Shown: piece by piece, positions 12,175 to 30,501 of the stretch
Numbering within the stretch: the stretch's first letter is position 1
Layout of the letters: the number at the start of each line of letters is the position of its first letter
Origin: Algoriphagus sp. Y33
GTDB lineage: Bacteria; Bacteroidota; Bacteroidia; Cytophagales; Cyclobacteriaceae
Assembly: GCF_014838715.1 (NCBI RefSeq)
Contig: NZ_CP061947.1
Span: 3,782,001 to 3,846,000 of the forward strand
Direction: 5' to 3'
Length of the DNA: 64,000 bases
Position numbers and translations under genes: made by a program
Notes under the pieces: generated by a model
What the model was told of the DNA's origin: nothing
Databases searched by the model: none
The model's input: the letters and a program-made list of their open reading frames with translations, nothing else

Positions 12175-12342
12175 AATTTGAATATGCCTAAAAGGCGGTA
12201 GTAATTCTAACTCCGTCTCTGGATAATTATTCTTATTTCTAACATTGAAAGCACTTCTATGCATCATTTTTAGTAACTTAAAAATCACATCAGCGATAGA
12301 TGCTGAGGTATCTCTCTTTTGGTCAAAAGCTCAAAAAAACCC

Positions 12343-12762
12343 ATGAAAACCCTGTTAACTCTATCTCTTTTTCTCTGCGCTACTTTTGTCTTTGCACAGA
12401 CAGATAAAGAAGTTGCCTCCCAAGTTGAAAAACTCCGCCTGGCATTAATTGATCCCACTGAGGAAAGTCTGAGCGAGCTCAGTTCACCAAGTCTTAGCTA
12501 CGGACACTCAAGCGGAAAAATGGAAAGCCAAGCCCAGTTTATCGAAGCGTTGGTCAGCGGAACATCCGATTTTGCCACAGTTGATTTTCAAGATCAAACG
12601 ATCCAAGTATCGAAAGATATTGCAATAGTCCGACATAATCTAGCCGCCGATGTGCTCGATGGAGGCATCTCAAACTCCATAAAAATCGGCGTAATACTGG
12701 TATGGCAAAAAGAAAAGGGACAGTGGAAACTTATTGCACGGCAAGCGTATAAATTACCCTAA
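12343..12762 (+). CDS. Exported NTF2-like (DUF4440) protein
   Basis: 139 residues from the ATG at 12343; an upstream GTG/TTG-type start at 12319 only adds eight residues before the signal peptide. The leader MKTLLTLSLFLCATFVFAQ ends in a good signal peptidase site. The mature part (about 120 residues) has the cone-shaped NTF2/SnoaL pattern of DUF4440: a first helix with EKLRLALIDP, the LSYGHSSG strand, and a closing VWQKEKGQWKLIARQAY. It is probably periplasmic and may bind a small ligand; no reaction can be named. It lies 25 bases upstream of the response regulator and could share its transcript. Confidence 0.78.
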   Translation: MKTLLTLSLFLCATFVFAQTDKEVASQVEKLRLALIDPTEESLSELSSPSLSYGHSSGKMESQAQFIEALVSGTSDFATVDFQDQTIQVSKDIAIVRHNLAADVLDGGISNSIKIGVILVWQKEKGQWKLIARQAYKLP

Positions 12763-16911: not shown

Positions 16912-18006
16912 TCATTTTATATCCTCTCCCTTGATAGGCTTTTTGTGCCAATAGGAAGCGAGCAAAGAACCGGTCACATTCATCAAAGGGCCAAAAACAG
17001 CAGGAGCCAGACCCACAGTAGCTATTTTACCCATTTCCTTGGCGATACCTGAAGCCAATCCCCCATTCTGCATTCCCACCTCTATCGCAATAGTTCTACA
17101 GTCTTTTTCATTGAGCCTCAGCAACCTGCTCGCCCAATACCCCAGAGTATATCCTGCAAGGTTGTGAATTACCACCAGAATAATCAGCAGTGGGCCTATC
17201 TCCAATAAACTATCCCTGCCGGCAGCTACTATCACTATAAGAATAAGGGCTATAGCTGCCATAGAAATTATCGGCATCAGATCATCCAGCCATTTGGCTT
17301 TGCCTTGCAAGAAATAATTGAAAATCAGCCCCGCACCTATAGGTATAATCACCATTTTCACAATGCTAAACATCATATCCAGAACGTCAATTGCCACAAA
17401 TTCCCCCGCAAGCCATCCCATCAAAAACGGAGTGACGAAAGGTGCCAACAAAGTGGTGACTGAGGTCACGGTAATAGAAAGAGCAAGATTCGCCCTAGCA
17501 AGGTAGCTCATTACATTGGAAGCCATTCCACTTGGAGAACAGCCGATAAGAATAATCCCGGCAGCTATTTCCGGCGAAAAGCCACTCATATTTGCTAGCG
17601 AATACCCAATAAAAGGCATTATGGAAAATTGGCAAAGCACACCTATGAGCACCCCTTTGGGCATTTTGACTACTCCGAGAAAATCTTTGATGCTCATAGA
17701 AGTCCCCATTCCAAACATAATTATCTGGATCAATGGAACTATCAAACCACTAAACTTGAAGCTTCCGTACTCAATGAAATAATGCGGAAAATAAAGTGCA
17801 AGTGCCACAGACCCAAAGATCATCATGGAGTAAGCATAGCCTTTTAATTTCGGACTTCCCAAAAATGTAATGGCGCAGCAAAAGAAAAAGCCAATCCATA
17901 GCAGTCCTGCATGTGCAATACCTAAAAAAAGACTAATGCCTAGTGCAGCAAAGAACATTACACCGGTGACAGCTGAAAGTATTTTAGTAATTGTTGGATT
18001 AAACAT
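16912..18006 (-). CDS. BASS-family sodium symporter (bile acid:Na+ symporter family)
   Basis: 364 residues from the ATG at 18006 (a TTG at 18039 would add 11). About ten hydrophobic segments. The SBF-family marks are the half-helix LIGCSPSGMASNVMSYLARAN, with the Na-site region, and AIEVGMQNGGLASGIAKEM in the second repeat. Plant BASS2 of this superfamily is a sodium:pyruvate symporter; others take bile acids or pantothenate. It is the last gene of the acid-sugar locus, 90 bases after the enolase-superfamily gene, so import of a small keto acid made by the exported enzymes is a reasonable inference. Slightly longer than most bacterial members. Confidence 0.85.
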   Translation of the reverse strand: MFNPTITKILSAVTGVMFFAALGISLFLGIAHAGLLWIGFFFCCAITFLGSPKLKGYAYSMMIFGSVALALYFPHYFIEYGSFKFSGLIVPLIQIIMFGMGTSMSIKDFLGVVKMPKGVLIGVLCQFSIMPFIGYSLANMSGFSPEIAAGIILIGCSPSGMASNVMSYLARANLALSITVTSVTTLLAPFVTPFLMGWLAGEFVAIDVLDMMFSIVKMVIIPIGAGLIFNYFLQGKAKWLDDLMPIISMAAIALILIVIVAAGRDSLLEIGPLLIILVVIHNLAGYTLGYWASRLLRLNEKDCRTIAIEVGMQNGGLASGIAKEMGKIATVGLAPAVFGPLMNVTGSLLASYWHKKPIKGEDIK

Positions 18007-18096
18007 TGTTGGATTTTGGGTGAGGACGAATGAAAACAACCCGAAAACAGGTTTTTCAACTAGCTCTCGGGTATATCAATAGGTAAAATAGGTGTC

Positions 18097-19581
18097 TTAA
18101 CTGTAAGTTCGGTCATGAGAGCGCTTTTCATTCCACATCTCTGTAGGAGCGAAAAAAGAACTATCAGACTTATGCAAATGCGCTTTCACCACTTCTTCAT
18201 TCAGCTCGATTCCTAACCCTGGAGCATCCAATGGAACCGGTGCATATCCTTTGTCAATCATCTTGCCTCCACCTGTCATCGTCACCATATCCTCCCACCA
18301 AGGTATATCTACCGAATGGTGCTCTAACGCAAGAAAATTCTGTGTCGCGGCTGCACAATGCACATTTGCCATAAATGAAACAGGGGTACCGGCCTGGTGC
18401 ATAGCCATACCAATTCCTTTTTCTTCCGCATAATCCGCGATTCTCTTTGTCTCCAAAAGACCGCCTGAGGATGCCAAATCCGGATGTACAATATCTACAG
18501 CATGATTATCGATGAGGTCTTTGAAATATTCCAGTAGATAGATGTCTTCACCGGTAGTCGTAGGAGTGTTCAGTGCATCCGTGATAGTCTTGTGCTGCTG
18601 CCACATCTGCCAAGGAACCATGTCTTCCAACCATGCCAGACGATATTTATCAAGTGCTTGGCCTAGCCGGATACAATTGTTCAAGTCAAAGTGTCCATAG
18701 TGATCTGTTGATATCGGAATATCATACCCTACCATACTTCTCACATTATCCACGATTTTTGCAAGCTCGTCAAGACCTTTTTCTGTAATCTGTACACCTG
18801 TAAATGGATGTGCTGTATTTGCATAGGACATATAGCCTCCCTGCCACTGGCTTTTCCCTTGCTTGAAAATCTCAGGATTCACAATACAGCCTGGGATATC
18901 CATAATCTCCCCAATCGAAACATCCATCTTCAACCACGTATATCCCTGCTCCTCAGTTCTGTATTTGATAAGTTTCCTTTGCTCTTCCGGAGAACTTGCT
19001 TCCGGCGTATCGGCATATAGCCTCACAGAATCCCTATATCTCCCACCCAGCAGTTGCCAGGCTGGCACATTATAGGCTTTTCCACAAAGATCCCATAACG
19101 CCATCTCTACTCCACAAACCCCTCCGGCTTGGCGGGACTGACCGCCAAACTGCTTGATAATCTTAAAAATTTTCTCCACGTTACATGGATTCTCCCCAAG
19201 AATACGGCTTTTCAGCATCAAAGCATACGTTGGATCTGCACCGTCACGTACTTCTCCCAGTCCGTAAATACCTTGATTGGTATCAATACGCAAAATGGCT
19301 GTACCTCCCATTACCGCAGTATGGGCGTATCTCATATCCGTAATTTTCAGATCAGACGGTGCAGAAGCTCTACGCAAATTTTTGGTCGTTTCGGCCATGG
19401 TATCTTCAATGCTTAGCCCCATGAGTGCTGTCAAACTCAATCCTCCCAGTGCTGTTTTCTTCAAAAAATCCCTCCTGTTGTCCTTTGTAAATGGATTGTC
19501 AATTTCTGCTTGCCTCTGCGCGGTATACTGCTGTTCTCTTGTTTTGTTTTTTTCTATCAGATCTTTAAGCGTGCTTTTCAT
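18097..19581 (-). CDS. Tat-exported enolase-superfamily (mandelate racemase/MLE-type) enzyme
   Basis: 494 residues. A twin-arginine signal (RRDFLKKTALGGLSLTALMG) begins only at residue 36, after a charged N-terminal extension. The capping domain and TIM barrel follow. Probable metal ligands are Asp in ISTDHYGH, Glu in AWLEDMVP and Glu in TTGEDIYL; a general-base His is in GMAMHQAGTP and a final acidic residue in LALEHHSVD. The superfamily KxK is KMD (TWLKMDV), so it is not a racemase of the usual type, and a sugar-acid dehydratase is most likely. It differs clearly from the other enolase-superfamily protein at 20928. Repeat copy E1 lies just upstream. Confidence 0.82.
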   Translation of the reverse strand: MKSTLKDLIEKNKTREQQYTAQRQAEIDNPFTKDNRRDFLKKTALGGLSLTALMGLSIEDTMAETTKNLRRASAPSDLKITDMRYAHTAVMGGTAILRIDTNQGIYGLGEVRDGADPTYALMLKSRILGENPCNVEKIFKIIKQFGGQSRQAGGVCGVEMALWDLCGKAYNVPAWQLLGGRYRDSVRLYADTPEASSPEEQRKLIKYRTEEQGYTWLKMDVSIGEIMDIPGCIVNPEIFKQGKSQWQGGYMSYANTAHPFTGVQITEKGLDELAKIVDNVRSMVGYDIPISTDHYGHFDLNNCIRLGQALDKYRLAWLEDMVPWQMWQQHKTITDALNTPTTTGEDIYLLEYFKDLIDNHAVDIVHPDLASSGGLLETKRIADYAEEKGIGMAMHQAGTPVSFMANVHCAAATQNFLALEHHSVDIPWWEDMVTMTGGGKMIDKGYAPVPLDAPGLGIELNEEVVKAHLHKSDSSFFAPTEMWNEKRSHDRTYS

Positions 19582-19657
19582 AGTAGATTGGGTTATTGTT
19601 TATTATCAGTTTAATCGCAAATAATCATATTATAACTCGTGTAGTATTACCCAAGAT

Positions 19658-19762
19658 CCGTCAGGTTTACACCATGGATTTTTGATGAATAAGTAGCTTC
19701 TTATGGTTCTAAATAGCAAAACCTGACAGGTTTATCCGGTACTTTTTACACTTAACATAACA
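19658..19762 (+). repeat. Dispersed palindromic repeat, copy E1
   Basis: About 105 bases that align with 34296-34401. Shared words are GTCARGTTTACACCATKGA, TTTTTGATRAATAAG, GGTTCTAA, the near-palindrome AAACCTGACAGGTTT (19719-19733) and a TAACATA end. It fills half of the 218-base gap between the two last enzyme genes of the operon, so it may shape transcript stability there. No coding content. Confidence 0.65.
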
Positions 19763-19799
19763 CTAGTTGAAAATAAGTTTGGTGAACTATCATCCAACC

Positions 19800-20777
19800 T
19801 CAATAATTTCTTTCTTTCAGATAATCGTCCAATTCTTCCTTAGTCATTGGAAGTTTTCCGGGGTAATTATTCAACCAGTCCAGAAAATCCTTTTTGATCT
19901 CCTCTGTCCACTGACTGTCTATCTGACCAGCCAGATACTTTCCTTCCCGAAGTCTTTGATGCCCGAATTCATCTCTTAATCCAGTCACTTCGGATGTCAA
20001 CACCAGTTCCTCCACCAGATAGGCAGGAATAAAAATCACTCCGTATTTCTTCGCCAACACCACATCACCCGGAAGTACTGTTGCTCTCCCTATGCGAATC
20101 GGAGAATTAATGGACGTAAGCATCATTTGCTGGATGTAGGAAGGATCTTGGCCTTTCATCCAGGCATTGAAACCTTCGATTGCAGAGAGCCCTTCCTGAT
20201 CACGAACCGAGCCATTGAAAATTACTCCCCGCTGGGATTTGGCGTAGATCGCATTTCCGAGATTATCACCGATCAAAGTTCCGTCCACTATCTTTCCATA
20301 CCCATCGGCCACATATACATCTCCATTGGTAAGGATATCAATTGGCCAGGAGTTAGTCCCTCCTTTTGGGGATCTACCTTCTTTTTCTACTCCCTGGTCT
20401 TTAACTTGCTTCTCCAAATCAGGTCTTAGGGGCATGTATTGAGCTGTAACTACACGACCGGTCATTGCTTCCTCAGGAAGCATGATTTGCCAGTCCCCTT
20501 CATATTGGTTTTGATAGCCTTTGTTTCTAAGCACGCCCCAAGCCTCTTCGATGGAGATGTTTTTCAATCGTTCAAGAATGGAATCTGAGACCTTGGGTCT
20601 GCCGTCTTGAAAACGCTCCCCCGTCCAATCTGCGGTGAGGGCTTTGATGTATTCCGGGGAAGCTCCCACATGTTGTGCTGTAGCACTTCCACCCACTACA
20701 AAAAGGATCACAGCAAGTATACTCGCTAAGGCATGCGTCCCACGCAAAGCTTTAAATTCAAGATAAAAGATATTCAT
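19800..20777 (-). CDS. Exported RraA-family (HMG/CHA aldolase-like) protein, copy 1
   Basis: 325 residues from the ATG at 20777; a TTG at 20810 adds 11. Residues 16-34 are hydrophobic and end in ATAQ, a likely signal peptide. The RraA fold follows. The aldolase motif GDNLGN (170-175) and the Arg192-Asp193 pair in NGSVRDQEG are kept; in HMG/CHA aldolases these bind the metal and pyruvate enolate. Hence an aldolase or decarboxylase acting on a 2-keto acid is favoured over the RNase E regulator role. Its paralogue is at 22226. Both have an extra N-terminal helical part (residues about 40-100) beyond the usual 160-200 residue family length. Confidence 0.82.
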   Translation of the reverse strand: MNIFYLEFKALRGTHALASILAVILFVVGGSATAQHVGASPEYIKALTADWTGERFQDGRPKVSDSILERLKNISIEEAWGVLRNKGYQNQYEGDWQIMLPEEAMTGRVVTAQYMPLRPDLEKQVKDQGVEKEGRSPKGGTNSWPIDILTNGDVYVADGYGKIVDGTLIGDNLGNAIYAKSQRGVIFNGSVRDQEGLSAIEGFNAWMKGQDPSYIQQMMLTSINSPIRIGRATVLPGDVVLAKKYGVIFIPAYLVEELVLTSEVTGLRDEFGHQRLREGKYLAGQIDSQWTEEIKKDFLDWLNNYPGKLPMTKEELDDYLKERNY

Positions 20778-20927
20778 AGTTATTTGGCCAGGGTTTATCG
20801 ATTTACTCAAGGTGCTGTTTTTTTAGTTATAATAAGGTTGGGACTTTCAATTGAAACGACCCTCTTTCTATGTTATATGGTCATCCTTACCATTAATTCT
20901 GGTTTATGACGGTGAAGTACCCCGGCA

Positions 20928-22202
20928 TTATTCAAAAAAAGGAATCCCCGGAACTGCGTGTTTTTTCATTCCTTCCTCATTGATTTCCACTCCGATTCCA
21001 GGCTTCTCAGAAAGAGTGATGAAGCTATTTTCAGTTTTCGGGCCATCGTAGGTCACGATATCTTTCCAGAGATCGTCGGTGTCCATATAGATTTGCCATT
21101 CCATAATCTGGAAGTTTGGCACCGACGCACATACATGGCAACTCGCCATAGCGCCTAAAAAAGAAGCCACCATATGAGGAGAAAAAGGCACATAATGAAG
21201 ATTGGCCAAATTGGCAATGCGCTGACCTTCTCCTAATCCCCCTGCCTTCTGCAGATCGGGCATAATGATATTCAAGGCTCCATCCGACAATAGTTTTGTA
21301 AATCCGTAGGCTAGGTAGATATTTTCGCCGGCACAGATCGGAGTGCTAGTCTCTTGGGTAATATGCTTATACATTTCCGGATTATCAGCAGGTATTGGTT
21401 CTTCTAAAAACATCAAATTCAGAGGCTCGTAAGCTTTCGCCATCTTCATTCCGGTTATTGCGTCATATCTCCCGTGCATATCTACACAGATATCTATATT
21501 GGGTCCCACCTCTTCCCTCACTGCCGCTATGGCATTGTACATTCTGTCTATTTCTGCCGGACTCGCTGTCCAGTTGTATCGGTCATATTTATTAGGATCT
21601 CTTGCATCATCTACATCAAATTTTACTGCGTTATATCCCCGGGAGACGGCATTCTTTGCAGCAGCGGCATAATCATCCGGAGTAGGATTGGTAGACGTAT
21701 AAAGTGCTGTATCGCAATAGACCCGGATTTTATCTCTGAATTTCCCTCCCAGCAATTGGTAAACAGGAACGTTAAATACTTTTCCGGTAATATCCCAAAG
21801 GGCTGTTTCAATCGCTGTCAAAACAGCCACAAATACTCCGGATTGTGCACCACCAAAAAAAGCTCCTTTGCGGATTTGCTCTGCTAGTCGATTGGGATTT
21901 AGTGGGTTTTGCCCCCTAAGCTGTCTCCCCATGCGCTGAATCATGTAATAGGTACCTTGGATAGCATCTACTGCTTCACCACATCCCCAAACGTCCTGAT
22001 CGGTATATATTTTTACATAGACTGCACCCCGCACATAGGCACACTTTACATCCGTAATTTTTAGATCTGAAGGATTAGAGTAGGGATTTTGTCGTGCCAC
22101 TGCTTCATTTAAACCGCCAAAAGTCCCCAATAAGCCAGCGCCGGTCAGTCCGGCTACAGCACTTTTTTGAAGAAATGATCTTCTTGTATTTTTAGGTTTC
22201 AT
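20928..22202 (-). CDS. Tat-exported galactonate dehydratase-like enolase-superfamily enzyme
   Basis: 424 residues. Tat signal RRSFLQKSAVAGLTGAGLLG at 7-26. The barrel keeps the full galactonate-dehydratase set: Asp241-Met-His243 (DMHGR), Glu267 (FLEEP), Glu293 (AGENI), catalytic His343 (SPHMVAS) and Glu368 (QIMEW). This is strong support for a syn-dehydration of an aldonate to a 2-keto-3-deoxy acid. Cytoplasmic members are the norm; an exported one implies the reaction runs in the periplasm. It starts 23 bases after the upstream RraA gene stop, so the two form a dehydratase/aldolase pair. Confidence 0.87.
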   Translation of the reverse strand: MKPKNTRRSFLQKSAVAGLTGAGLLGTFGGLNEAVARQNPYSNPSDLKITDVKCAYVRGAVYVKIYTDQDVWGCGEAVDAIQGTYYMIQRMGRQLRGQNPLNPNRLAEQIRKGAFFGGAQSGVFVAVLTAIETALWDITGKVFNVPVYQLLGGKFRDKIRVYCDTALYTSTNPTPDDYAAAAKNAVSRGYNAVKFDVDDARDPNKYDRYNWTASPAEIDRMYNAIAAVREEVGPNIDICVDMHGRYDAITGMKMAKAYEPLNLMFLEEPIPADNPEMYKHITQETSTPICAGENIYLAYGFTKLLSDGALNIIMPDLQKAGGLGEGQRIANLANLHYVPFSPHMVASFLGAMASCHVCASVPNFQIMEWQIYMDTDDLWKDIVTYDGPKTENSFITLSEKPGIGVEINEEGMKKHAVPGIPFFE

Positions 22203-22225
22203 AGGTTTATCAGATTTTTAATTAG

Positions 22226-23158
22226 TTACCAGGTTCTGTTTTTGAGTATTTCTTGAATCTGCTCCCTTGCTATAGGCAATTCGTCAATATGGGCTTCAAG
22301 CCACTGAGAAAAGTCTTTTTCTATTTCATCAGACCACCTGGTATCGATATCACCGGCAGTATATTTTCCTTCACGGATTCGCTCATGCCCAAACATATCC
22401 CTCAACCGAACTACCTCAGAGGTAACTACTACCTGCTCGACTAGATGAGCGGGGATAAACGAAACTGCACCGTCACGACCTAAAACCACATCACCTGCCA
22501 TCACTGTAGCTTGTCCGATTTTTGTAGGTTTATTGATACCGATCAGCATGGTATTTAAATCTCTAGGTTGGTTATGATGGGAAGGATGATATGTACGGTA
22601 ATAGGAGGTGAAGCCTCCGATTTCTTTGAGTCCGGCGATATCCCTGATAGCTCCATTATAAACTATTCCATTGCCTGAATTGGCATAAATCGCATTGCCT
22701 ACATTATCGCCGATAGTAGGACCTCCATCATGAATCCCGAACTGGTCGGCAACATATACATCTCCTTCTACCAATAAATCCACTGGCCAAACATTCTGTC
22801 CTTTCTTTCCTTCAGCTTTTCCACGGGCATCTATGGCTCCATGGATATCTGGCCTGCCAGGCATAAAAGTGGCTGTCAAAGCCCTTCCCACCATAATGCT
22901 GTCAGGATTGATCATCTCCCATCCATCTGCATATTGGTATTTGTAGCCTGCATTTTTCATCACTGCCCATGCTTCGTCATGGGTAACGATTTTCATTCGC
23001 TTCAATAGGTCATCAGACACTTTAGGGCGACCATCTTCAAATCTTTCTCCTTTCCATTCTTGGGTGAGAAAGAGCATTTCTTCTTTGGAAATTTGCTGAG
23101 AAAAAGATTCTATTACAACTAAGAATAGAAACAATAGGGTTAGATATGATTTGTTCAT
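22226..23158 (-). CDS. Exported RraA-family (HMG/CHA aldolase-like) protein, copy 2
   Basis: 310 residues with a signal peptide (MNKSYLTLLFLFLVVIESFS, cleavage before QQ). It is a clear paralogue of copy 1: both contain GERFxDGRPKVSD, the NVWPVDLL/NSWPIDIL strand, GDVYVAD and FGHxRxREGKY. The catalytic GDNVGN (150-155) and Arg172-Asp173 are present. The proposed reaction is retro-aldol cleavage of the keto acid made by the neighbouring dehydratase. It is the first enzyme gene after susD, 60 bases downstream, with a terminator in between. Confidence 0.83.
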   Translation of the reverse strand: MNKSYLTLLFLFLVVIESFSQQISKEEMLFLTQEWKGERFEDGRPKVSDDLLKRMKIVTHDEAWAVMKNAGYKYQYADGWEMINPDSIMVGRALTATFMPGRPDIHGAIDARGKAEGKKGQNVWPVDLLVEGDVYVADQFGIHDGGPTIGDNVGNAIYANSGNGIVYNGAIRDIAGLKEIGGFTSYYRTYHPSHHNQPRDLNTMLIGINKPTKIGQATVMAGDVVLGRDGAVSFIPAHLVEQVVVTSEVVRLRDMFGHERIREGKYTAGDIDTRWSDEIEKDFSQWLEAHIDELPIAREQIQEILKNRTW

Positions 23159-23179
23159 CTTGGAATATAACTAAAATCT

Positions 23180-23210
23180 AAAAAACCGAGTCTGGGTTTT
23201 CCAGACCCGG
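23180..23210 (-). terminator. Intrinsic terminator between susD and the first aldolase gene
   Basis: On the minus strand CCGGGTCTGG (23210-23201) pairs with CCAGACTCGG (23195-23186) through one wobble, with a five-base loop, and TTTTTT follows (23185-23180). It starts eight bases after the susD stop. The next gene begins at 23158, only 21 bases after the T run, so expression of the enzymes needs read-through. Confidence 0.85.
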
Positions 23211-23218
23211 TTATGTTT

Positions 23219-24736
23219 CTATTTATCCCACCAAACTTTGGTCTCAAGGTTATCAGCTCCCTGAGCTGAAATAGCAGCTTGGACATTTTCGGAATTCACA
23301 GAAATTTCAGAATTCGGATAAGTTAATCGATTGATAAATTCCACGTCCCTTCCAGGATATGGATTTGGAGTCAATTCCGGATAGCCCGATCTCCTGAAGT
23401 TAGCAAAAGCTTCTGGACCATTCAGAAAGCTGGAGATCCAATATTGCGTGTTGATCTGCTCCATTGCCATAGACGCTTCGAAGGGATTTTGCTCGAGATA
23501 TTGATCTATTTCAGAAGTGGAAATGACAGATCCTTCATCCACCGTACCAAGCTGATTCATATGGGCACGGACTCCGGCATTGTAGTACTCTTCCACCGAT
23601 CCGCTGCTGATCCAGCCCCTTTCTCTTGCTTCTGCCATAAGCAAATAATTTTGCGAAGCAGTAACAAGAAAGTTTGGTGCAGTATTTTTGGTCACCCGTC
23701 TTCTATCTGCTTGCGCAAATTCGTAAAAACTGGCCAATCCCAATGCCGAAGCAGCACTTACAGCTCCTGCATTATCGTTCCCCATGGGCATTCCCACATG
23801 GATACTTGCATCATAGGTTTCATTGGCGGCTGTCTGCTCCGGACCTGATTTGGCACCTACATAAGTTACTGCAATTGCAGAAAGACGTGGATCATTCCTG
23901 TTTCGCAGATAGTCTACAAATGGTTCCGTTAAGTAGAAATTGGAAGCTTCAGTTGCATTCAGGAAATTACCGATGGGATTGGTGTAGTTTGGGTCATGGT
24001 TGATTTTGGCGTTATCGTCATTTGTCAAAATAACTCCCCCCTGCACGGCTACCTGTACCACTTGGGCAGCTGTGACGGGATCTACTTTGCTCAGCCGCAT
24101 CCCTGCTCTCAGAAGCAGTGAATAACCAAAACTCTTCCATTTGTTCAAATCACCTCCGTAGAGAATATCAGCAGATTCCATAGTTCCGGAAAGATCCAAA
24201 GCTGCAGTAGCTTCAGTCAATTCTTTGATCAAATCCTCGTAAATAGCTTCCTGAGAATCATACACAGGCAGGTAAATCTGATCTGAATAGCCTTTGCCTC
24301 CTTCGAAATACGGAATACTCCCATAATCATCCGTCAGCACCATAAACGCAAATGCTTGAACAATTCTGGTCATATTCTTAAGATTGGCCCGGGAAGGGTT
24401 ATCTTCTGTCTGGTTGATTACATCACGTGTATTTTTGATCACGTTTCTATAATATCCCTGCCACAGTTCCTGAGTCAAGGTTCTGTTATCTTGGTTGTAA
24501 TTGGCTCCTGAGACCAGCCCTGAATTAGGGGTGACTATCTGCTGAACAATCCCAATATCATAGACTAAACTTCCATTCGGGTATGCACAGCCTACAATCG
24601 CGGCATTCAGTTGAAATACCGGATCAATTGAAGTTGCACTGACTTTATTGGTATTGAGTTCATCAAAGTTATTGTCGCATCCCGATGAATAAACCAATAC
24701 TACTAGTATGAATATATAATTGATGATCTTTTGCAT
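23219..24736 (-). CDS. SusD/RagB-like outer membrane lipoprotein
   Basis: 505 residues. Lipoprotein signal with Cys20 (VYSSGC). The mature N-terminus DNNFDELNTNKVSATSIDP is the typical start of the SusD-like group with TPR helices. LLMAEARERGW and a PNPYPGRDVEF segment match conserved family parts near the C-terminus. It should lie on the cell surface as the lid of the SusC channel at 24748. The gene starts 11 bases after susC. The ligand is not predictable; the downstream enzymes point to a sugar acid or acidic glycan. Confidence 0.92.
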   Translation of the reverse strand: MQKIINYIFILVVLVYSSGCDNNFDELNTNKVSATSIDPVFQLNAAIVGCAYPNGSLVYDIGIVQQIVTPNSGLVSGANYNQDNRTLTQELWQGYYRNVIKNTRDVINQTEDNPSRANLKNMTRIVQAFAFMVLTDDYGSIPYFEGGKGYSDQIYLPVYDSQEAIYEDLIKELTEATAALDLSGTMESADILYGGDLNKWKSFGYSLLLRAGMRLSKVDPVTAAQVVQVAVQGGVILTNDDNAKINHDPNYTNPIGNFLNATEASNFYLTEPFVDYLRNRNDPRLSAIAVTYVGAKSGPEQTAANETYDASIHVGMPMGNDNAGAVSAASALGLASFYEFAQADRRRVTKNTAPNFLVTASQNYLLMAEARERGWISSGSVEEYYNAGVRAHMNQLGTVDEGSVISTSEIDQYLEQNPFEASMAMEQINTQYWISSFLNGPEAFANFRRSGYPELTPNPYPGRDVEFINRLTYPNSEISVNSENVQAAISAQGADNLETKVWWDK

Positions 24737-24747
24737 GTCTGTATAGC

Positions 24748-27700
24748 TTAGAATTTGACATTAAGATTGAAACCTAAACCTCTCGTAGACGGAAGGCCAG
24801 TGGACTCCAAGCCTACTAAGTTGTCTGAAGAATACCCGAAAGACTCCGGATCGATATTGTCAACCCATTTCTTGATCATAAAGACGTTATTTGCCACAAA
24901 ATTTAGTTTAACCGACTTGAACGGCTGTTTTTCGGGCAGATGTTTCGTAAAATCATAGCCCAGCGTAATTTGCCGAAGCTTCCAATAACCACCATTATAA
25001 ATCACCGGCTCCACCAAGGCTTGAGACCTTACGACCTCCCAATAGGATTGGACGGGTGCTACGACTGTGTTTGTCTCGCCGGCTTCATTGACACCTACGC
25101 CGATCACTCCTCCTTCTCTTCCTTCCAGAGTCATCTTATGAAGACCATGTCTGGTCGCATTGAAATTAGTACCGGAAAGCATGGTATTTCCTAGCTTGAA
25201 GTCAATCAGAAAGGAAAGCATCACTCCTTTATAATTGAATGAGTTATTGAATCCCCCCACCCAATTAGGTAATGCAGAGCCAAAATTCACCAAGTCATCT
25301 GTACGAAGTGGAATACCATTTCCACCAAAAACCTGACGTCCCTGCGCATCCCGCTTGAAGCCGAATCCCGCAACTTGCCCCATTTCCATTCCCACGATTT
25401 GTCTCAGCTCCCCATTGAAAACATGTGTGCCAACTGTGATTCGCTCTCCAGGAGTGTCTGTCAATAAGCTGAGCACCTCTGTCTTATTGTATGCCGCATT
25501 TGTGGTAAATTCCCAAGTGAACTTTTCGTTTTCGACGGGTACCAGGGTGAGCAGCATTTCCACTCCTTTATTTTCACTTTGACCACTATTGATAGATGTA
25601 TTCACAAAGCCCGACGCGTCTGAAATCTGAGCACTTACTATCTGGTCTGTAGTAAGTTTTCTATAAGCAGCCATATCAAGATTCACTCTGCCTTGGAACA
25701 TACTCAGCTCGAAACCTATTTCTGCTTCTCCGATTCTCATAGGCCGCAAATTTGGGTTGGGAAGGTTGGTGCCGTTTGGACCTCCGACAGGCTGTCCATC
25801 GAAAAGGTTGTTGTTGATACCATAGAAAAGCACATTTGAGTATGCTCCCACGTCTGCATCACTTCCCACCTCCGCGTAAGCTGCCCTCAACTTGCCGAAG
25901 TTCAACCAGCCCGTTGTTCCCGTATTTTCCGTGAACACCCAACTTGCAGATACTGAAGGATAAATAATGCTCCTGTTTTCTTTGGAAAGTGTAGAAAACC
26001 AATCATTTCGCAAAGTCCCTGTCAAAAACAGCATATCCTTAAATGAGAATTCTGCCGAACCATAGAGGGAATTTACCGCACGCTCATTCAAATCATAAAG
26101 AGGATCCTTGGCCCTTCCATTCTGCACGGTATACAATCCCCTTACAACAAAATCTGTAACCTGTACACTGTTGCGATCGGAACGACGCTGCATATGGTTT
26201 CCACCAAAATTTGCATTCAGTGTATAATCACCAAATTTATGATTCACATTAACAAGAAAATCCGTATTGATCTCACGGAATCGCCTGGATTCCTGAGTGT
26301 ACATACCGTTGACAAATCCTGCAGGCGCAGCCGCCCTGGAAGCTTGACCTGTAGGAAAATTATTGTAATCCTGATCACGTGACCAATAATCCTCTCCCAC
26401 TCTTCCTTGGATAAACAACCAAGGAAGAATGTCATATTTCACAGCTATATTTCCGAAAATCCTATCCCGTTTAATATTCTGAAATTGCTCTGCCAGGGTA
26501 AAGTATGGGTTGGTCCGGTTACGAAATCTTGAGTAAACAGCTTCGTCCCCATTTGCATCATACTTATTTTCATCCAGTACGTTCAGCGGCATAGAATTAG
26601 CCATGCTGTAAAGAGCCACAGGAATTGTATTGTCTTGCTCACCGATGTTTGGCGGGTTTTTGTTCTCCTCTACAGAGTAGTTAAAATTGCCCTTAAAGCT
26701 AAATTTAGGTGTCAAATCATAGCCAAAGCCCAGGTTTATTGTCTTTCTATTAAAGGTATTGTTGGGTACGATCCCCTTGCTGTTTAGATCCGAAAAGGAT
26801 AGACTAAGCCCGCCTTTTTCAGTAGAGGTTGCCAGGGTTATTGAATTTGTCACATTTTGCCCGTTGCGAAAAAAATCATTGATAATTCCCCTTACAGGCT
26901 GGTAAGGAACCGTCACGCCGTCAAACAACATTTGTGTCATTCCGGGCTGGAACCTCTCTCCGAATGACCATTGCCCTGAAGTCGGATTTGGGGTGGTTGG
27001 CCTTACACCTTGTTCACCTTGACCGTATTCATATTGATAGTCGGTAAAATCCAAAGGTGCCTCATTTGTATAATTCAGATTATAGGTAATCCCGATTCCC
27101 CGCGTGTCATTCTTGCTTTTGGTAGTAATCATTACTACCCCGTCTTTGGCACGGGAACCATATAATGCCGCCGCTGCAGCTCCTTTTAGAATCGTCATGG
27201 ATTCTACATCATCGGGATTGATACTGGAAAGCCCATCTCCGCCATCAGAGGTGTTTCCTCCTCCGCCCCGCACTCCTATACTGCTATCAGAAGCACCATT
27301 GCCAGGATTGGAACCAAAATTTGTGTTGTCAATAGGAACTCCATTAACCACTATCAACGGGTTGTTTTGCCCTGAAATAGATGATTGTCCCCTGATACGG
27401 ATTTTTGAAGTGCCCCCGGGTCCGGAACCCAGTGCAGAGATAGATACTCCTGCTACTTTACCCTGAAGGGCATTCATCACATTGGGGGTTCTATTTACAG
27501 TTAGCTCATCTGATTTCACTGTGGAGGTAGCATAACCGAGGCTTTTGGCAGATTTTTCTATTCCCAAGGCGGTAACGACTACTTCTTCCAAGTCACTTTC
27601 ATCTACTTTCATTGTCAGGTCAACCACGGATCTGTTGCCAACTGTAATTTCCTGATTGAGGTAGCCTACAAATGAAAAAACCAAGACGGAAGATTCATTT

Positions 27701-28290
27701 TCTGCGTTGATGGAATAATTTCCGTTGTTGTCGGTGACAGTACCTACGGAAGTTCCTTTCAGCAATACATTTACTCCCGGAAACCCCACGCCATTTTCAT
27801 CCGTCACCTTGCCAGTGATTTGAACTCTACGTCTGTCATTTATAGAATTCACACTTCTGGCTATAGTTGCCTCAGACGTGGAAATTCTCCCTTCCGAAGA
27901 TGGTGCCAGCGAAGCTGTTTGAATAAATCTCAAATCAGCTCCTTTAACGGATTGGTTAGACCTATTTTGGAATATCACATAAAAATTCTCACCTGCCTTC
28001 TCGTAGCTGAGACCAGTTTCTTTCAAAACTACTTTTAACCCTTCCTCCACTGTATTAAAGGAAGATTTTGATGATTTGATCTTTTTTGATTGTACCAATT
28101 CATCCTTGTAAGCTATCGAGACATTGAATTTGTTCTCGAATTGGGTAAGGACCTCTTTTAGGTCCCTGTTATCATATCTAGATGTAGAGGTATCTAGGTG
28201 TTTTTCCGAAGCTATCAAACCCTCGACTTGCGCTGATGCAAACCAAGAAATCGAATAGCTTATACATACTAATAGTACAAACTTTCTCAT
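24748..28290 (-). CDS. SusC/RagA TonB-linked outer membrane transporter with STN domain
   Basis: 1180 residues. Signal peptide to residue 20, then an STN domain (residues about 40-110, NRDLKEVLTQFENKFNVSIA), a carboxypeptidase-like domain (ITGKVTDENGVGFPGVNVLL), the LEEVVVTALGIEK TonB-box region, a plug and a long barrel ending in LGFNLNVKF. The STN domain links the transporter to the FecR anti-sigma encoded 43 bases upstream, so occupied transporter should trigger the sigma factor. It imports the locus substrate across the outer membrane with SusD. Length is near the upper range because of STN. Confidence 0.95.
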   Translation of the reverse strand: MRKFVLLVCISYSISWFASAQVEGLIASEKHLDTSTSRYDNRDLKEVLTQFENKFNVSIAYKDELVQSKKIKSSKSSFNTVEEGLKVVLKETGLSYEKAGENFYVIFQNRSNQSVKGADLRFIQTASLAPSSEGRISTSEATIARSVNSINDRRRVQITGKVTDENGVGFPGVNVLLKGTSVGTVTDNNGNYSINAENESSVLVFSFVGYLNQEITVGNRSVVDLTMKVDESDLEEVVVTALGIEKSAKSLGYATSTVKSDELTVNRTPNVMNALQGKVAGVSISALGSGPGGTSKIRIRGQSSISGQNNPLIVVNGVPIDNTNFGSNPGNGASDSSIGVRGGGGNTSDGGDGLSSINPDDVESMTILKGAAAAALYGSRAKDGVVMITTKSKNDTRGIGITYNLNYTNEAPLDFTDYQYEYGQGEQGVRPTTPNPTSGQWSFGERFQPGMTQMLFDGVTVPYQPVRGIINDFFRNGQNVTNSITLATSTEKGGLSLSFSDLNSKGIVPNNTFNRKTINLGFGYDLTPKFSFKGNFNYSVEENKNPPNIGEQDNTIPVALYSMANSMPLNVLDENKYDANGDEAVYSRFRNRTNPYFTLAEQFQNIKRDRIFGNIAVKYDILPWLFIQGRVGEDYWSRDQDYNNFPTGQASRAAAPAGFVNGMYTQESRRFREINTDFLVNVNHKFGDYTLNANFGGNHMQRRSDRNSVQVTDFVVRGLYTVQNGRAKDPLYDLNERAVNSLYGSAEFSFKDMLFLTGTLRNDWFSTLSKENRSIIYPSVSASWVFTENTGTTGWLNFGKLRAAYAEVGSDADVGAYSNVLFYGINNNLFDGQPVGGPNGTNLPNPNLRPMRIGEAEIGFELSMFQGRVNLDMAAYRKLTTDQIVSAQISDASGFVNTSINSGQSENKGVEMLLTLVPVENEKFTWEFTTNAAYNKTEVLSLLTDTPGERITVGTHVFNGELRQIVGMEMGQVAGFGFKRDAQGRQVFGGNGIPLRTDDLVNFGSALPNWVGGFNNSFNYKGVMLSFLIDFKLGNTMLSGTNFNATRHGLHKMTLEGREGGVIGVGVNEAGETNTVVAPVQSYWEVVRSQALVEPVIYNGGYWKLRQITLGYDFTKHLPEKQPFKSVKLNFVANNVFMIKKWVDNIDPESFGYSSDNLVGLESTGLPSTRGLGFNLNVKF

Positions 28291-28333
28291 TGTAAACAGG
28301 GTTCAGGTTATTTGGGGAATACTTCATTTTGGG

Positions 28334-29344
28334 TTATTTAATCAGGTACTTATTGTGCTCGTCTACTATTTCAACATTGAATATTTTGGAAATCTGCGAC
28401 ATAAAACTTGCCGCATCACTAAGCGGCATAGAGCCTGATGCTGTTAGTTTTAGCACTTCATGATCTTGCACGTCAATATCAATCCCGTAATTATTTCTGG
28501 CCATCTTTATAATCTCTTCCAAGCTGGTCTCATCCAAGTGGAACACTTTGTCTTTCCACGAAGTGTAGTGTGTGGTATTTACTTTCTTACGCTGAAACTT
28601 ACTCTCTTTAAATTCTACCAATTCTCCTGGACTCATCAGGATTTTGCCCTCTTTTTCTTTCACAGGAAAGCTCAGGGTCACCAGCCCGGAAGCCAGCACC
28701 ACCTCTGTCTCCTGCGATCGGTTATAGACATTAAATTCTGTCCCCAGAACTTCTATAGCCACATTTTGTGAGCTAAATACTTTGAAAGGTTGATGATCTG
28801 TTTTATGAACCACACTAAAAAATGCTTCTCCTTCGATCCTGATTTCTCTGGCGGTTTGGTCTTCCCAATCATTAACAAAAGCCAATCTGGAATTAGAATT
28901 CAAGATTACAATGGAACTGTCAGGCAGCATGATTTCTTTGGTTTCTCCATAAGCAGTTTGATATTCTATTTCCCTTGGCAACTCATACCAATACCAGACA
29001 AGGAAGGCGAAAACAATAGACGCAGCCACAGAGGTTAGAGGCCAAAATTTCTTCCTTCGGGATGATGGTTTAAGAATCCTTCGGGGATTTTTAATATCAG
29101 CTTGTACAGCATCCCACACTGCATGCAATTCATCTGAATTCATTTCAAACTTTGACTTCTCAAGAGTCAAAACCAATCTTTTTGCTTCTTCCAGCAATTT
29201 TATTTTGGATGGGTTAGCATCTTTCCAAATAGTCCAAAACTCTTCATGAACCGGATCTGAAAAGAGCACCCATTCTTTGAAAAACGGATCCATGACAAAG
29301 TCATCTGTCGAAAAATTATCGTAATCGGTAGGTTGATGATTCAC
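28334..29344 (-). CDS. FecR-family anti-sigma factor
   Basis: 336 residues with a GTG start. A cytoplasmic N-terminal part binds sigma. One membrane helix (around VAASIVFAFLVWYWYEL, residues 100-118) follows. The FecR domain includes YQTAYGETKEIMLPDSSIV, GEAFFSVVH and GTEFNVYNR, and the C-terminal DUF4974-type domain runs DETSLEEIIKMARNNYGID to residue 336. It receives the signal from the STN domain of SusC. Unlike most FecIR pairs the sigma gene is not adjacent: 485 bases with repeat copy B lie in between. Confidence 0.93.
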   Translation of the reverse strand: MNHQPTDYDNFSTDDFVMDPFFKEWVLFSDPVHEEFWTIWKDANPSKIKLLEEAKRLVLTLEKSKFEMNSDELHAVWDAVQADIKNPRRILKPSSRRKKFWPLTSVAASIVFAFLVWYWYELPREIEYQTAYGETKEIMLPDSSIVILNSNSRLAFVNDWEDQTAREIRIEGEAFFSVVHKTDHQPFKVFSSQNVAIEVLGTEFNVYNRSQETEVVLASGLVTLSFPVKEKEGKILMSPGELVEFKESKFQRKKVNTTHYTSWKDKVFHLDETSLEEIIKMARNNYGIDIDVQDHEVLKLTASGSMPLSDAASFMSQISKIFNVEIVDEHNKYLIK

Positions 29345-29641
29345 TGCAACTCTTTTGGTTAATACCTATAAGAGTATCACAGCATCAAAACCTCATCATT
29401 TTTTTTAATCTTTTTTGGGAAAAATTAAGTAAAGGCAAAAAAATAACCAATTAAAACTCTGATTAACAAGGTATTATTGAATAAAAATAGGTGTTTCCAT
29501 TTTTATACCAACCCCTAGGATAAAGCATTGTAAGGTTCAGGAAACGCAAACATCAACACCACTTCGGCCTGCCCCACCTGGGTAGGGTCTTCCGCATTCC
29601 TTGCCTATAGGCATGCGCCCAGTAAAAGAAACATACCTGCC

Positions 29642-29695
29642 GGCATCATTGCGCCCATACCCATAAAAAATTATATGATTATCCGCAATGATGCC
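29642..29695. repeat. Perfect 12-bp inverted repeat with 30-base AT-rich loop
   Basis: GGCATCATTGCG (29642-29653) is the exact reverse complement of CGCAATGATGCC (29684-29695). The right arm plus AGT recurs at 11999-12012 upstream of repeat copy C, so it belongs to the same element as copies B and C. Confidence 0.6.
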
Positions 29696-29730
29696 AGTAG
29701 CCTCATTTTCTTTGGTGTAACGACAGGAAA

Positions 29731-29825
29731 ACCGATGACAGAAGACCGAAGTGGCCTCGGCACTAGTGTTTTCCAAATCCTATAATGCTTTAGTCTCTTT
29801 ACTGGCAGAAAAGCGGATATACATA
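29731..29825 (+). repeat. Dispersed intergenic repeat, copy B
   Basis: The best-preserved copy. Words in order: ACCGATGACAGAAGACCGAA, GTGGCC, CACTAGTGTTTTCCAAATCC, TATAATGCTTTAGTCTCTTT and AGAAAAGCGGATATACATA-like end (AGCGGATATACATA). It aligns to copy A at 1316-1409 and copy C at 12098-12174, and ends five bases before the sigma gene stop codon. Confidence 0.62.
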
Positions 29826-29830
29826 AAAAA

Positions 29831-30463
29831 TTAAAAGTAATAATTGAGAAAAGAAACTAACGACAAAGCTTTCATCACAACTCTCATACATTGTAATGCT
29901 TTTGAAAGAAGATTATGGGCAGAAGCAGGGGTAATTGACATTAGGCCCGCTATTTCTGAATAACTCAGCTCATTGAAATACTTGAGCACTACAATTTCCC
30001 GCTGTCTTTTTGAAATTTTTGTAAGTGCATCGGTGACTTTCCTCTCATTTTCCTTTGCATAATCGAGAGAAACCAAGCCGTCTTCAATCGACGCTTCAAA
30101 AGCCCGCGACTCCTGACCTTCATCCAAATCAGTGAAGAGCTTTCTATCCCTATTGATATGCTGGATAAGTAGATTTCGAAATGACTTAAACAGGTAATAC
30201 TTAACTGACTCCACTTCCGACAGTGATTCTCTTCTATTCCAAATAGTGGTAAACAACTCCTGAATACAGTCTTTGACCAATTCCCGATTGTAGCAAAAAT
30301 GCATACCATAATTAAAAAGCAAGTTGGAAAAGCGCTGATACAAATTGGAAAAAGCCAGATCATTGCCCTTTATCAAACTTTGCCACAAAGCTCTCTCGTC
30401 CGAACATGAACCGGAAGTGGTTTTCGGACTTCCTGAAATAAATAGATCAACCTTGCTACTCAT
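29831..30463 (-). CDS. FecI-like RNA polymerase sigma-70 factor (ECF)
   Basis: 210 residues from the ATG at 30463; a TTG six bases upstream is possible. Region 2 includes AFSNLYQRFSNLLFNYGMHF, CIQELFTTIWNRRESL and VKYYLFKSFRNLL. Region 4 is TKISKRQREIVVLKYFNELS with the helix-turn-helix YSEIAGLMSITPASAHNLLS. This is the Bacteroidota-expanded ECF group that serves SusC/FecR pairs. It should direct transcription of fecR-susCD and the enzyme genes when FecR releases it. Its own promoter region contains a large inverted repeat at 30502-30534. Confidence 0.92.
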   Translation of the reverse strand: MSSKVDLFISGSPKTTSGSCSDERALWQSLIKGNDLAFSNLYQRFSNLLFNYGMHFCYNRELVKDCIQELFTTIWNRRESLSEVESVKYYLFKSFRNLLIQHINRDRKLFTDLDEGQESRAFEASIEDGLVSLDYAKENERKVTDALTKISKRQREIVVLKYFNELSYSEIAGLMSITPASAHNLLSKALQCMRVVMKALSLVSFLNYYF

Positions 30464-30501
30464 ATACAAAATTTTATTCCTGTAAAATTCGATTTTAAGG
30501 T

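Follow-up and report, generated by a model that had tools for sequence, protein, structure and literature searches.

In a 64,000-nucleotide stretch of the Algoriphagus sp. Y33 genome (RefSeq assembly GCF_014838715.1, contig NZ_CP061947.1, positions 3,782,001 to 3,846,000; hereafter the window), we identified a nine-gene locus that probably encodes a periplasmic, non-phosphorylating Entner–Doudoroff-type pathway for sugar acids, a reading to which we assign a probability of roughly 0.7. The genes occupy the minus strand from position 30469 to 16912 and encode, in order, an extracytoplasmic function (ECF) sigma factor, FecR, SusC, SusD, a first RraA-family protein (RraA-a), a first enolase-superfamily dehydratase (dehydratase-1, ENO1), a second RraA-family protein (RraA-b), a second dehydratase (dehydratase-2, ENO2), and a BASS-family sodium symporter. 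In this model, SusC/SusD under ECF sigma/FecR control would import an aldonate, or a small aldonate-yielding compound, over the outer membrane. The two dehydratases, exported by twin-arginine translocation (Tat), would convert stereochemically different aldonates to 2-keto-3-deoxyaldonates, and each would pass its product to its own exported, metal-dependent RraA-type aldolase, yielding pyruvate and a short aldehyde. The small carboxylate product, most likely pyruvate, would then be imported with sodium by BASS. This reading is built on features visible at the sequence level: the genes present, their export signals and catalytic motifs, the pairing of RraA with a dehydratase, and co-occurrence across genomes.

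Conserved signals suggest that all four enzymes are exported. Under home-made rules (RR motif, Sec or lipoprotein signal) used instead of SignalP, both dehydratases of the window have an RR motif and a hydrophobic stretch, and both RraA proteins have a Sec-type signal; the NCBIfam TAT signal model passes its cut-off for dehydratase-1 only. The same genome encodes TatC, and both dehydratases are accordingly classed as predicted Tat substrates. In a set dereplicated at 90% (these counts and the residue-conservation counts below include the window genes), all 20 ENO1 relatives scored a Tat signal, as did 51 of 53 ENO2 relatives, with one more scored as Sec, and export signals were present in 65 of 68 RraA-b and 15 of 20 RraA-a relatives. 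Only one of 38 proteins from presumed-cytoplasmic control families was positive under the same rules, and cytoplasmic enzymes with mis-called starts were rejected on this ground. The two Tat and two Sec-like signals reported in the original prediction are confirmed and recur across relatives, and cytoplasmic localization, which it had named as an outcome that would speak against it, did not come true in the sequences; export of the four enzymes is well supported.

RraA-a and RraA-b are 49% identical, and the genome has no further PF03737 match at E 0.001. Both show the alpha-beta-beta-alpha fold of RraA and HMG/CHA aldolase. As originally predicted, both retain the characteristic motif, G-D-x20-R-D (D182/R203/D204 in RraA-b, P0003; D151/R172/D173 in RraA-a, P0005), whose D-x20-R-D spacing we take to be the metal/catalytic motif of the family. 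The strict motif is present in 126 of 132 complete RraA proteins of the loci and is invariant across a 42-row alignment; most RraA-family homologues bear one of two motifs, according to the available part of the source (PMC5065237). Scores of 49 and 25 bits against the NCBIfam LigK/CHA aldolase equivalog (cut-off 304.5) indicate that the proteins are not LigK/CHA aldolase specifically. We propose that RraA-a is a periplasmic 2-keto-3-deoxyaldonate aldolase cognate to dehydratase-1 and that RraA-b is an aldolase cognate to dehydratase-2, both presumably releasing pyruvate by aldol cleavage.

The dehydratases are 31% identical to each other and represent two of the five MR_MLE_C matches in the genome. 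Dehydratase-1 shows a galactonate-dehydratase-type residue pattern at the spacing of DgoD, whose numbering we assumed for the comparison: D241, H243, E267, E293, D316, H343, and E368 (spacings 26, 26, 23, 27, and 25), the first six of which are invariant in 36 of 36 sequences in a tally that left out E368. Dehydratase-2, whose predicted structure model has a pLDDT (predicted local distance difference test) of 79.4, still has the metal-ligand residues as well as the D368/H395 pair (D293, E319, E345, D368, and H395 in 84 of 84). The earlier claim that catalytic residues are kept stands for dehydratase-1 and both RraA proteins and needs correction for dehydratase-2, in which Tyr295 takes the place of the acid His. 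Against the D-galactonate dehydratase model PRK14017 (cut-off 311 bits), dehydratase-1 scored 246.7 and dehydratase-2 171.1 bits, and naming them as D-galactonate dehydratase was rejected because the cut-off was not reached. Dehydratase-1 is best described as a putative Tat-exported, galactonate-dehydratase-like enolase-superfamily enzyme that would catalyze dehydration.

Each RraA gene is paired with its own dehydratase gene. In the best 80 of 92 named loci, which contain 97 RraA genes and are biased toward RraA-b-like genes, RraA-a was followed by ENO1 in 21 of 21 cases and RraA-b by ENO2 in 70 of 76. In a phylum draw of 395 Bacteroidota genomes (32 regions with 34 RraA genes without the window; 33 regions with 36 genes with it), the RraA-a/ENO1 succession held in 11 of 11 cases without the window. 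All ENO1-followed RraA proteins fall on one side of a single branch (support 100/100) in a 71-row tree that does not include FlDet, an RraA-family enzyme considered below. Within the stretches read, Dyadobacter loci contain only RraA-b/ENO2, and two loci (L137 and L142) contain only RraA-a with ENO1. In genome G194, module b has been lost by deletion and module a is intact; what is left of module b is a single open frame (L143:11053-11715) that begins as RraA-b and ends as ENO2. The occurrence of each pair alone, together with this deletion, indicates two independent modules, which would most simply represent two substrate specificities.

Long RraA proteins were found in 24 of the 395 drawn genomes, ENO2 in 15, and ENO1 in 13 (co-occurrence thresholds of 1e-20, 1e-70, and 1e-60), and every ENO-positive genome was also RraA-positive. 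RraA-positive genomes without ENO1 or ENO2 (G126, G134, G171, and G300) all carry a SelA-like pyridoxal phosphate (PLP) enzyme, which occurs in seven of the 395 genomes, all of them RraA-positive; in G249, G203, and G286 its gene does not adjoin RraA. At the thresholds used, ENO1, ENO2, or an exported SelA-like enzyme was present in 24 of 24 RraA-positive and 0 of 371 RraA-negative genomes, the Fisher values for which ignore kinship between genomes. This co-occurrence makes chance neighbors unlikely. A survey showing no co-conservation had been named beforehand as evidence that would count against the prediction; strict pairing and co-occurrence were found instead, and co-conservation of RraA with the dehydratases is well supported. 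In a genus survey, whose outcome likewise exceeds chance, RraA matches were identified in 29 of 72 genomes, two in each, and none in the other 43; G194 and G438 retain no more than a fragment of the second match, and stops interrupt one match in each of G424 and G437. A contig labelled Williamsia (L071, an Actinomycetota metagenome-assembled genome) has a SusCD-kinase-RraA-ENO2 locus but is placed in the tree with a row from Chitinophagaceae; it is probably a mislabelled or contaminated bin.

Four loci (L116, L120, L125, and L128) contain RraA and BASS with no enolase gene adjoining RraA, and instead carry amidohydrolases (seven of eight scored Sec) and SelA-like PLP enzymes (N-terminal RR in six of six complete proteins by eye; Tat in four of six by the rule set). 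L116, L125, and L128 also encode RidA proteins, whose N-termini look RR-type or Sec-like by eye, with none seen in L120, and an SMP-30 lactonase occurs in L120, L125, and L128. According to the accessible text of the source, N-acetylglucosaminate use in Pseudoalteromonas requires a RidA protein together with a deacetylase and a deaminase, and the latter two form 2-keto-3-deoxygluconate (KDG) in vitro (PMC9537276). By analogy, we infer that the exported amidohydrolase, SelA-like enzyme, and RidA make KDG for RraA, and the four loci are candidates for the breakdown of N-acetylated amino sugar acids in the periplasm. Two unrelated front ends converging on RraA and BASS provide the best evidence for the substrate of RraA and for a BASS cargo downstream of it. 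With about even odds, in our estimate, the locus belongs to a modular periplasmic hub in Bacteroidota, with exported RraA and BASS as its core, swappable exported front ends, C-C cleavage outside the inner membrane, and entry of a three-carbon (C3) acid. Its front ends would be cognate dehydratases for aldonates (in some species also for free sugars, via an exported pyrroloquinoline quinone (PQQ) dehydrogenase and lactonase) and elsewhere the amidohydrolase, SelA-like lyase, and RidA for N-acetylated aminoaldonates.

Genes recurring near the loci were named by Pfam and NCBIfam from one to three representatives of each family, extended by BLAST clustering. By locus count they include FGGY kinases (13), UxuA-like proteins (11), AGE-type epimerases (9), PQQ dehydrogenases with cytochrome c (7), SMP-30/gluconolactonases (6), and major facilitator superfamily (MFS) carriers (6). 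The best NCBIfam names, most of them below cut-offs, are gluconokinase for two and xylulokinase for one of three FGGY representatives, D-galactonate transporter for the MFS carrier, mannonate dehydratase for one UxuA-like protein, and glucose/quinate dehydrogenase for one PQQ protein. Export signals were scored in 7 of 7 PQQ dehydrogenases, 6 of 6 lactonases, 9 of 11 UxuA-like proteins, and 7 of 9 AGE-type epimerases; the gluconokinase-like kinases are cytoplasmic. Neighbors that occur only once include a dehydratase of the dihydroxy-acid/L-arabinonate type and a PfkB kinase, for which KDG/KDGal (2-keto-3-deoxygalactonate) kinase ranks second among the models. RraA, ENO2, BASS, PQQ dehydrogenase, and lactonase are clustered in L127 and L124, and the window genome encodes a PQQ dehydrogenase far from the locus, with a lipoprotein-like N-terminus by eye. 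The exported dehydrogenases, lactonases, epimerases, and UxuA-like proteins, together with the gluconokinase-like kinases, point to aldonates as the substrate class, and the neighbors may be read as a sequence from aldose through lactone, aldonate, and 2-keto-3-deoxyaldonate to pyruvate, with export-signalled families for each step.

BASS carries an SBF domain, and its closest solved structure is ASBT-NM (2e-66). The sodium-site segments are conserved (all 51 proteins have E-V-G-M-Q-N, and 49 of the 51 have A-S-N), and the equivalent of Thr112 is mostly Met, Leu, or Val. Plant BASS2 transports pyruvate, as stated in the available part of the source (PMC10645422). Pyruvate is the likely cargo, on ambiguous residue evidence, and glycerate or another hydroxy acid is possible.

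The fate of the dehydration product might differ from the one proposed. If the RraA proteins acted like FlDet, 2-keto-3-deoxyaldarates derived from glucarate or galactarate would be dehydrated and decarboxylated in the periplasm to alpha-ketoglutarate semialdehyde, and BASS would import a five-carbon acid. FlDet, a Bacteroidota RraA-family enzyme, has precisely this activity, with KDGR the sole keto acid used among those tested, as reported in the accessible text (PMC8563752). The same text, however, gives FlDet 237 residues and its own Met as native N-terminus (PMC8563752), so that it is not processed for export. Both dehydratases lie far under the glucarate-dehydratase model (27 bits each, cut-off 828.7) and have galactonate dehydratase as their top-scoring model (247 and 171 bits, below cut-off), and the identified neighbors are mostly aldonate or sugar genes, all of which makes the aldarate route unlikely. 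Dehydration alone might instead be periplasmic, with BASS importing the 2-keto-3-deoxyaldonate or the aldonate and a cytoplasmic KDG kinase and 2-keto-3-deoxy-6-phosphogluconate (KDPG) aldolase completing the route. Two KDPG/KHG aldolase-family genes in the genome, one next to a PfkB kinase, would fit such a scheme, as would the FGGY gluconokinase-like and PfkB KDG-kinase-like genes near relatives' loci and the pocket Asn of BASS, which suits 2-hydroxy acids. We nevertheless consider it quite unlikely, given that both RraA aldolases are exported and tied to their own dehydratases and that BASS persists where the dehydratases are replaced but RraA is retained. It is very improbable that the locus serves another acid class, such as aromatic-derived 4-hydroxy-2-oxo acids cleaved as by HMG/CHA aldolase, or that the enolase-fold proteins are epimerases. 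By fold, RraA matches HMG/CHA aldolase and uncharacterized members equally well, ENO2 has no acid His at the canonical site, and epimerases are found within the enolase superfamily; yet no aromatic-ring-cleavage gene was present among the identified neighbor representatives, most of which are sugar or sugar-acid genes, many neighbors being unidentified.

Several observations count against a periplasmic aldonate-to-pyruvate pathway. FlDet, which is distantly related to RraA, acts as a dehydratase/decarboxylase and showed no activity on KDG in the available part of its description (PMC8563752). The equivalent of ASBT-NM Asn265, which is required for pantoate binding and thought to disfavor ketopantoate in the part of the source at hand (PMC10645422), is present in 51 of 51 BASS proteins. 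Only 49 of 131 RraA cases (32/91, 1/6, 10/24, and 6/10) have BASS at a distance of three genes or fewer, which means that other loci must depend on a different carrier or on one whose gene is elsewhere. RraA-b was followed by ENO2 in only 9 of 23 cases in the phylum draw without the window. The open reading frame (ORF) picker favors the longer frame and loses some genes (ENO2 of L117, RraA of L046); L117, at least, is counted among the 14 misses although its ENO2 lies about 110 bases past RraA. An adjacent dehydratase is missing for 6 of the 97 RraA genes in the named loci and for 11 of the 34 in the draw; the alternative front end stands beside only four of these 17, and the set was not seen alongside the other 13 (six named and seven drawn, including L117). 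The strict motif is missing in 6 of 132 RraA proteins, 5 of 20 RraA-a proteins scored no export signal, and dehydratase-2 has Tyr295 at the acid-His site two residues after the first metal Asp, a position that varies in relatives (Y 56, F 17, W 6, and T 5 of 84). No locus enzyme passes any NCBIfam function cut-off, and a tested activity for close relatives was not found. The cytoplasmic-type KDPG/KHG aldolase-family genes, the PfkB kinase genes of the genome, and the lack of an evident handler for the aldehyde product among the locus genes weigh on the same side.

Textbook sugar-acid breakdown takes place inside the cell, and the non-phosphorylative Entner–Doudoroff pathway of archaea and bacteria is cytoplasmic, with a DHDPS-family aldolase. 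The proposed route resembles it in leading from aldonate through 2-keto-3-deoxyaldonate to pyruvate and an aldehyde with no ATP spent, and differs in that the dehydratase and an aldolase of a different fold are exported. HMG/CHA aldolase shares the RraA fold, the Asp and Arg-Asp motif, and pyruvate aldolase activity, as far as the available text describes it (PMC5065237), but it is an aromatic-degradation enzyme, and the RraA proteins of the locus are longer, exported, and 19% identical over 208 aligned positions. FlDet of Flavobacterium sp. UMI-01 likewise acts on a 2-keto-3-deoxy sugar acid, but it is shorter, shows no export processing, and performs another chemistry, with no enolase-family dehydratase described alongside in the available part of the paper (PMC8563752). 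The ong cluster of the Pseudoalteromonas oxidative chitin pathway shares TonB-dependent uptake of an oxidized sugar and the formation of KDG by a deacetylase and a deaminase, RidA being needed as well, as proposed for the alternative front end; in the accessible text, however, OngB and OngC are predicted to be cytoplasmic, KDG is phosphorylated, and RraA is unmentioned (PMC9537276). A figure of a haloarchaeal mannan cluster, in the part of the source available, includes RraA and mannonate dehydratase (PMC10963439). In the open-licence PubMed Central literature (subscription papers and preprints lie outside it), as far as its accessible texts go, we found no description of exported RraA/dehydratase pairs or of such a periplasmic route.

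The locus resembles Bacteroidota polysaccharide utilization loci (PULs) in having a SusC/SusD pair, identified by Pfam, under ECF sigma/FecR control, but by Pfam none of its nine genes encodes a carbohydrate-active enzyme, be it a glycoside hydrolase, a lyase, or an esterase. A classic glycan PUL was rejected for this reason; a GH28 neighbor was present in one tested relative (L018). The original view of an exported aldonate-to-pyruvate route distinct from glycan PULs holds in outline and gains from export, pairing, co-occurrence, PQQ/lactonase neighbors, and the putatively KDG-forming front end, and aldol cleavage and pyruvate as cargo are still what we infer.

The window is carried by a single 6.38 Mb contig, with Algoriphagus as the closest named relatives. 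ORF calls and Pfam matches above curated cut-offs (Sigma70, FecR, SusC-type TonB receptor, SusD-like_2, RraA-like twice, MR_MLE twice, and SBF) bear out the predicted order of the nine genes (Table 1). Intergenic gaps from FecR to BASS are 11 to 218 bases, and the sigma–FecR gap is 486, calculated from listed ORF ends; the first row of alignment A1 begins one codon past the likely ATG. SusC scored 648.5 bits against TIGR04056 (cut-off 368.25). The STN domain predicted in SusC was not upheld, since its match is under the curated cut-off (25.0 versus 28.4 bits) and an overlapping FecR_C match is over it (26.6 versus 24.4).

Table 1. Features of the sugar-acid locus and its surroundings in the window
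Feature	Position	Strand	Basis
ECF sigma factor (P0009)	29831..30469	-	Pfam Sigma70_r2/r4_2
FecR-type anti-sigma factor (P0008)	28334..29344	-	Pfam FecR, FecR_C
SusC/RagA outer-membrane transporter (P0007), FecR_C/STN-like N-terminal region	24748..28290	-	Pfam; NCBIfam TIGR04056
SusD-like lipoprotein (P0006)	23219..24736	-	Pfam SusD-like_2 1e-81; lipoprotein-type signal
Terminator-like hairpin, gap between SusD and first enzyme gene	23184..23212	-	Pattern scan only
RraA-a (P0005)	22226..23158	-	Pfam RraA-like; Sec signal; D-x20-R-D; clade and neighbor match
Dehydratase-1 (P0004, ENO1)	20928..22202	-	Pfam MR_MLE; TAT signal model above cut-off; residues
RraA-b (P0003)	19800..20777	-	ORF opens at TTG 20810; likely start ATG 20777
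Dehydratase-2 (P0002, ENO2)	18097..19581	-	Pfam MR_MLE; RR motif; residues
BASS-family sodium symporter (P0001)	16912..18039	-	Pfam SBF 5.7e-39; first in-frame ATG is codon 12
Secreted DUF4440/SnoaL-like protein, probable outlying member	12319..12762	+	Neighbor conservation; BLAST cluster; Pfam on relatives

The terminator-like hairpin that separates SusD from RraA-a may act as an attenuator and could reduce enzyme expression relative to SusCD, as judged from its pattern; the scan found 15 terminator-like hairpins in the region versus 11.5 expected. A sigma-70 promoter scan was uninformative (33 found versus 30.7 expected). The DUF4440/SnoaL-like protein, in whose BLAST cluster two relatives matched Pfam DUF4440, has BASS or ENO2 as its neighbor in 15 of the 21 loci with such a gene and is possibly an auxiliary isomerase of the pathway. 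Its gene lies beside BASS in L016, L025, L029, L078, L081, L120, and L125; other genes intervene between it and BASS/ENO2 in the window and four Algoriphagus relatives. Outside the locus, the plus strand of the window contains a 2376-residue open reading frame (49693-56823).

If the proposed pathway is correct, many environmental Bacteroidota would carry out in the periplasm a central catabolic sequence that is usually cytoplasmic. Both the function and the location of a protein family often labelled as a regulator of RNase E activity would be established, and SusCD systems that have no glycan-degrading enzyme would gain a substrate class. The finding may also bear on the consumers of aldonates that arise from oxidative attack on cellulose and chitin and from glucose-oxidizing neighbors.

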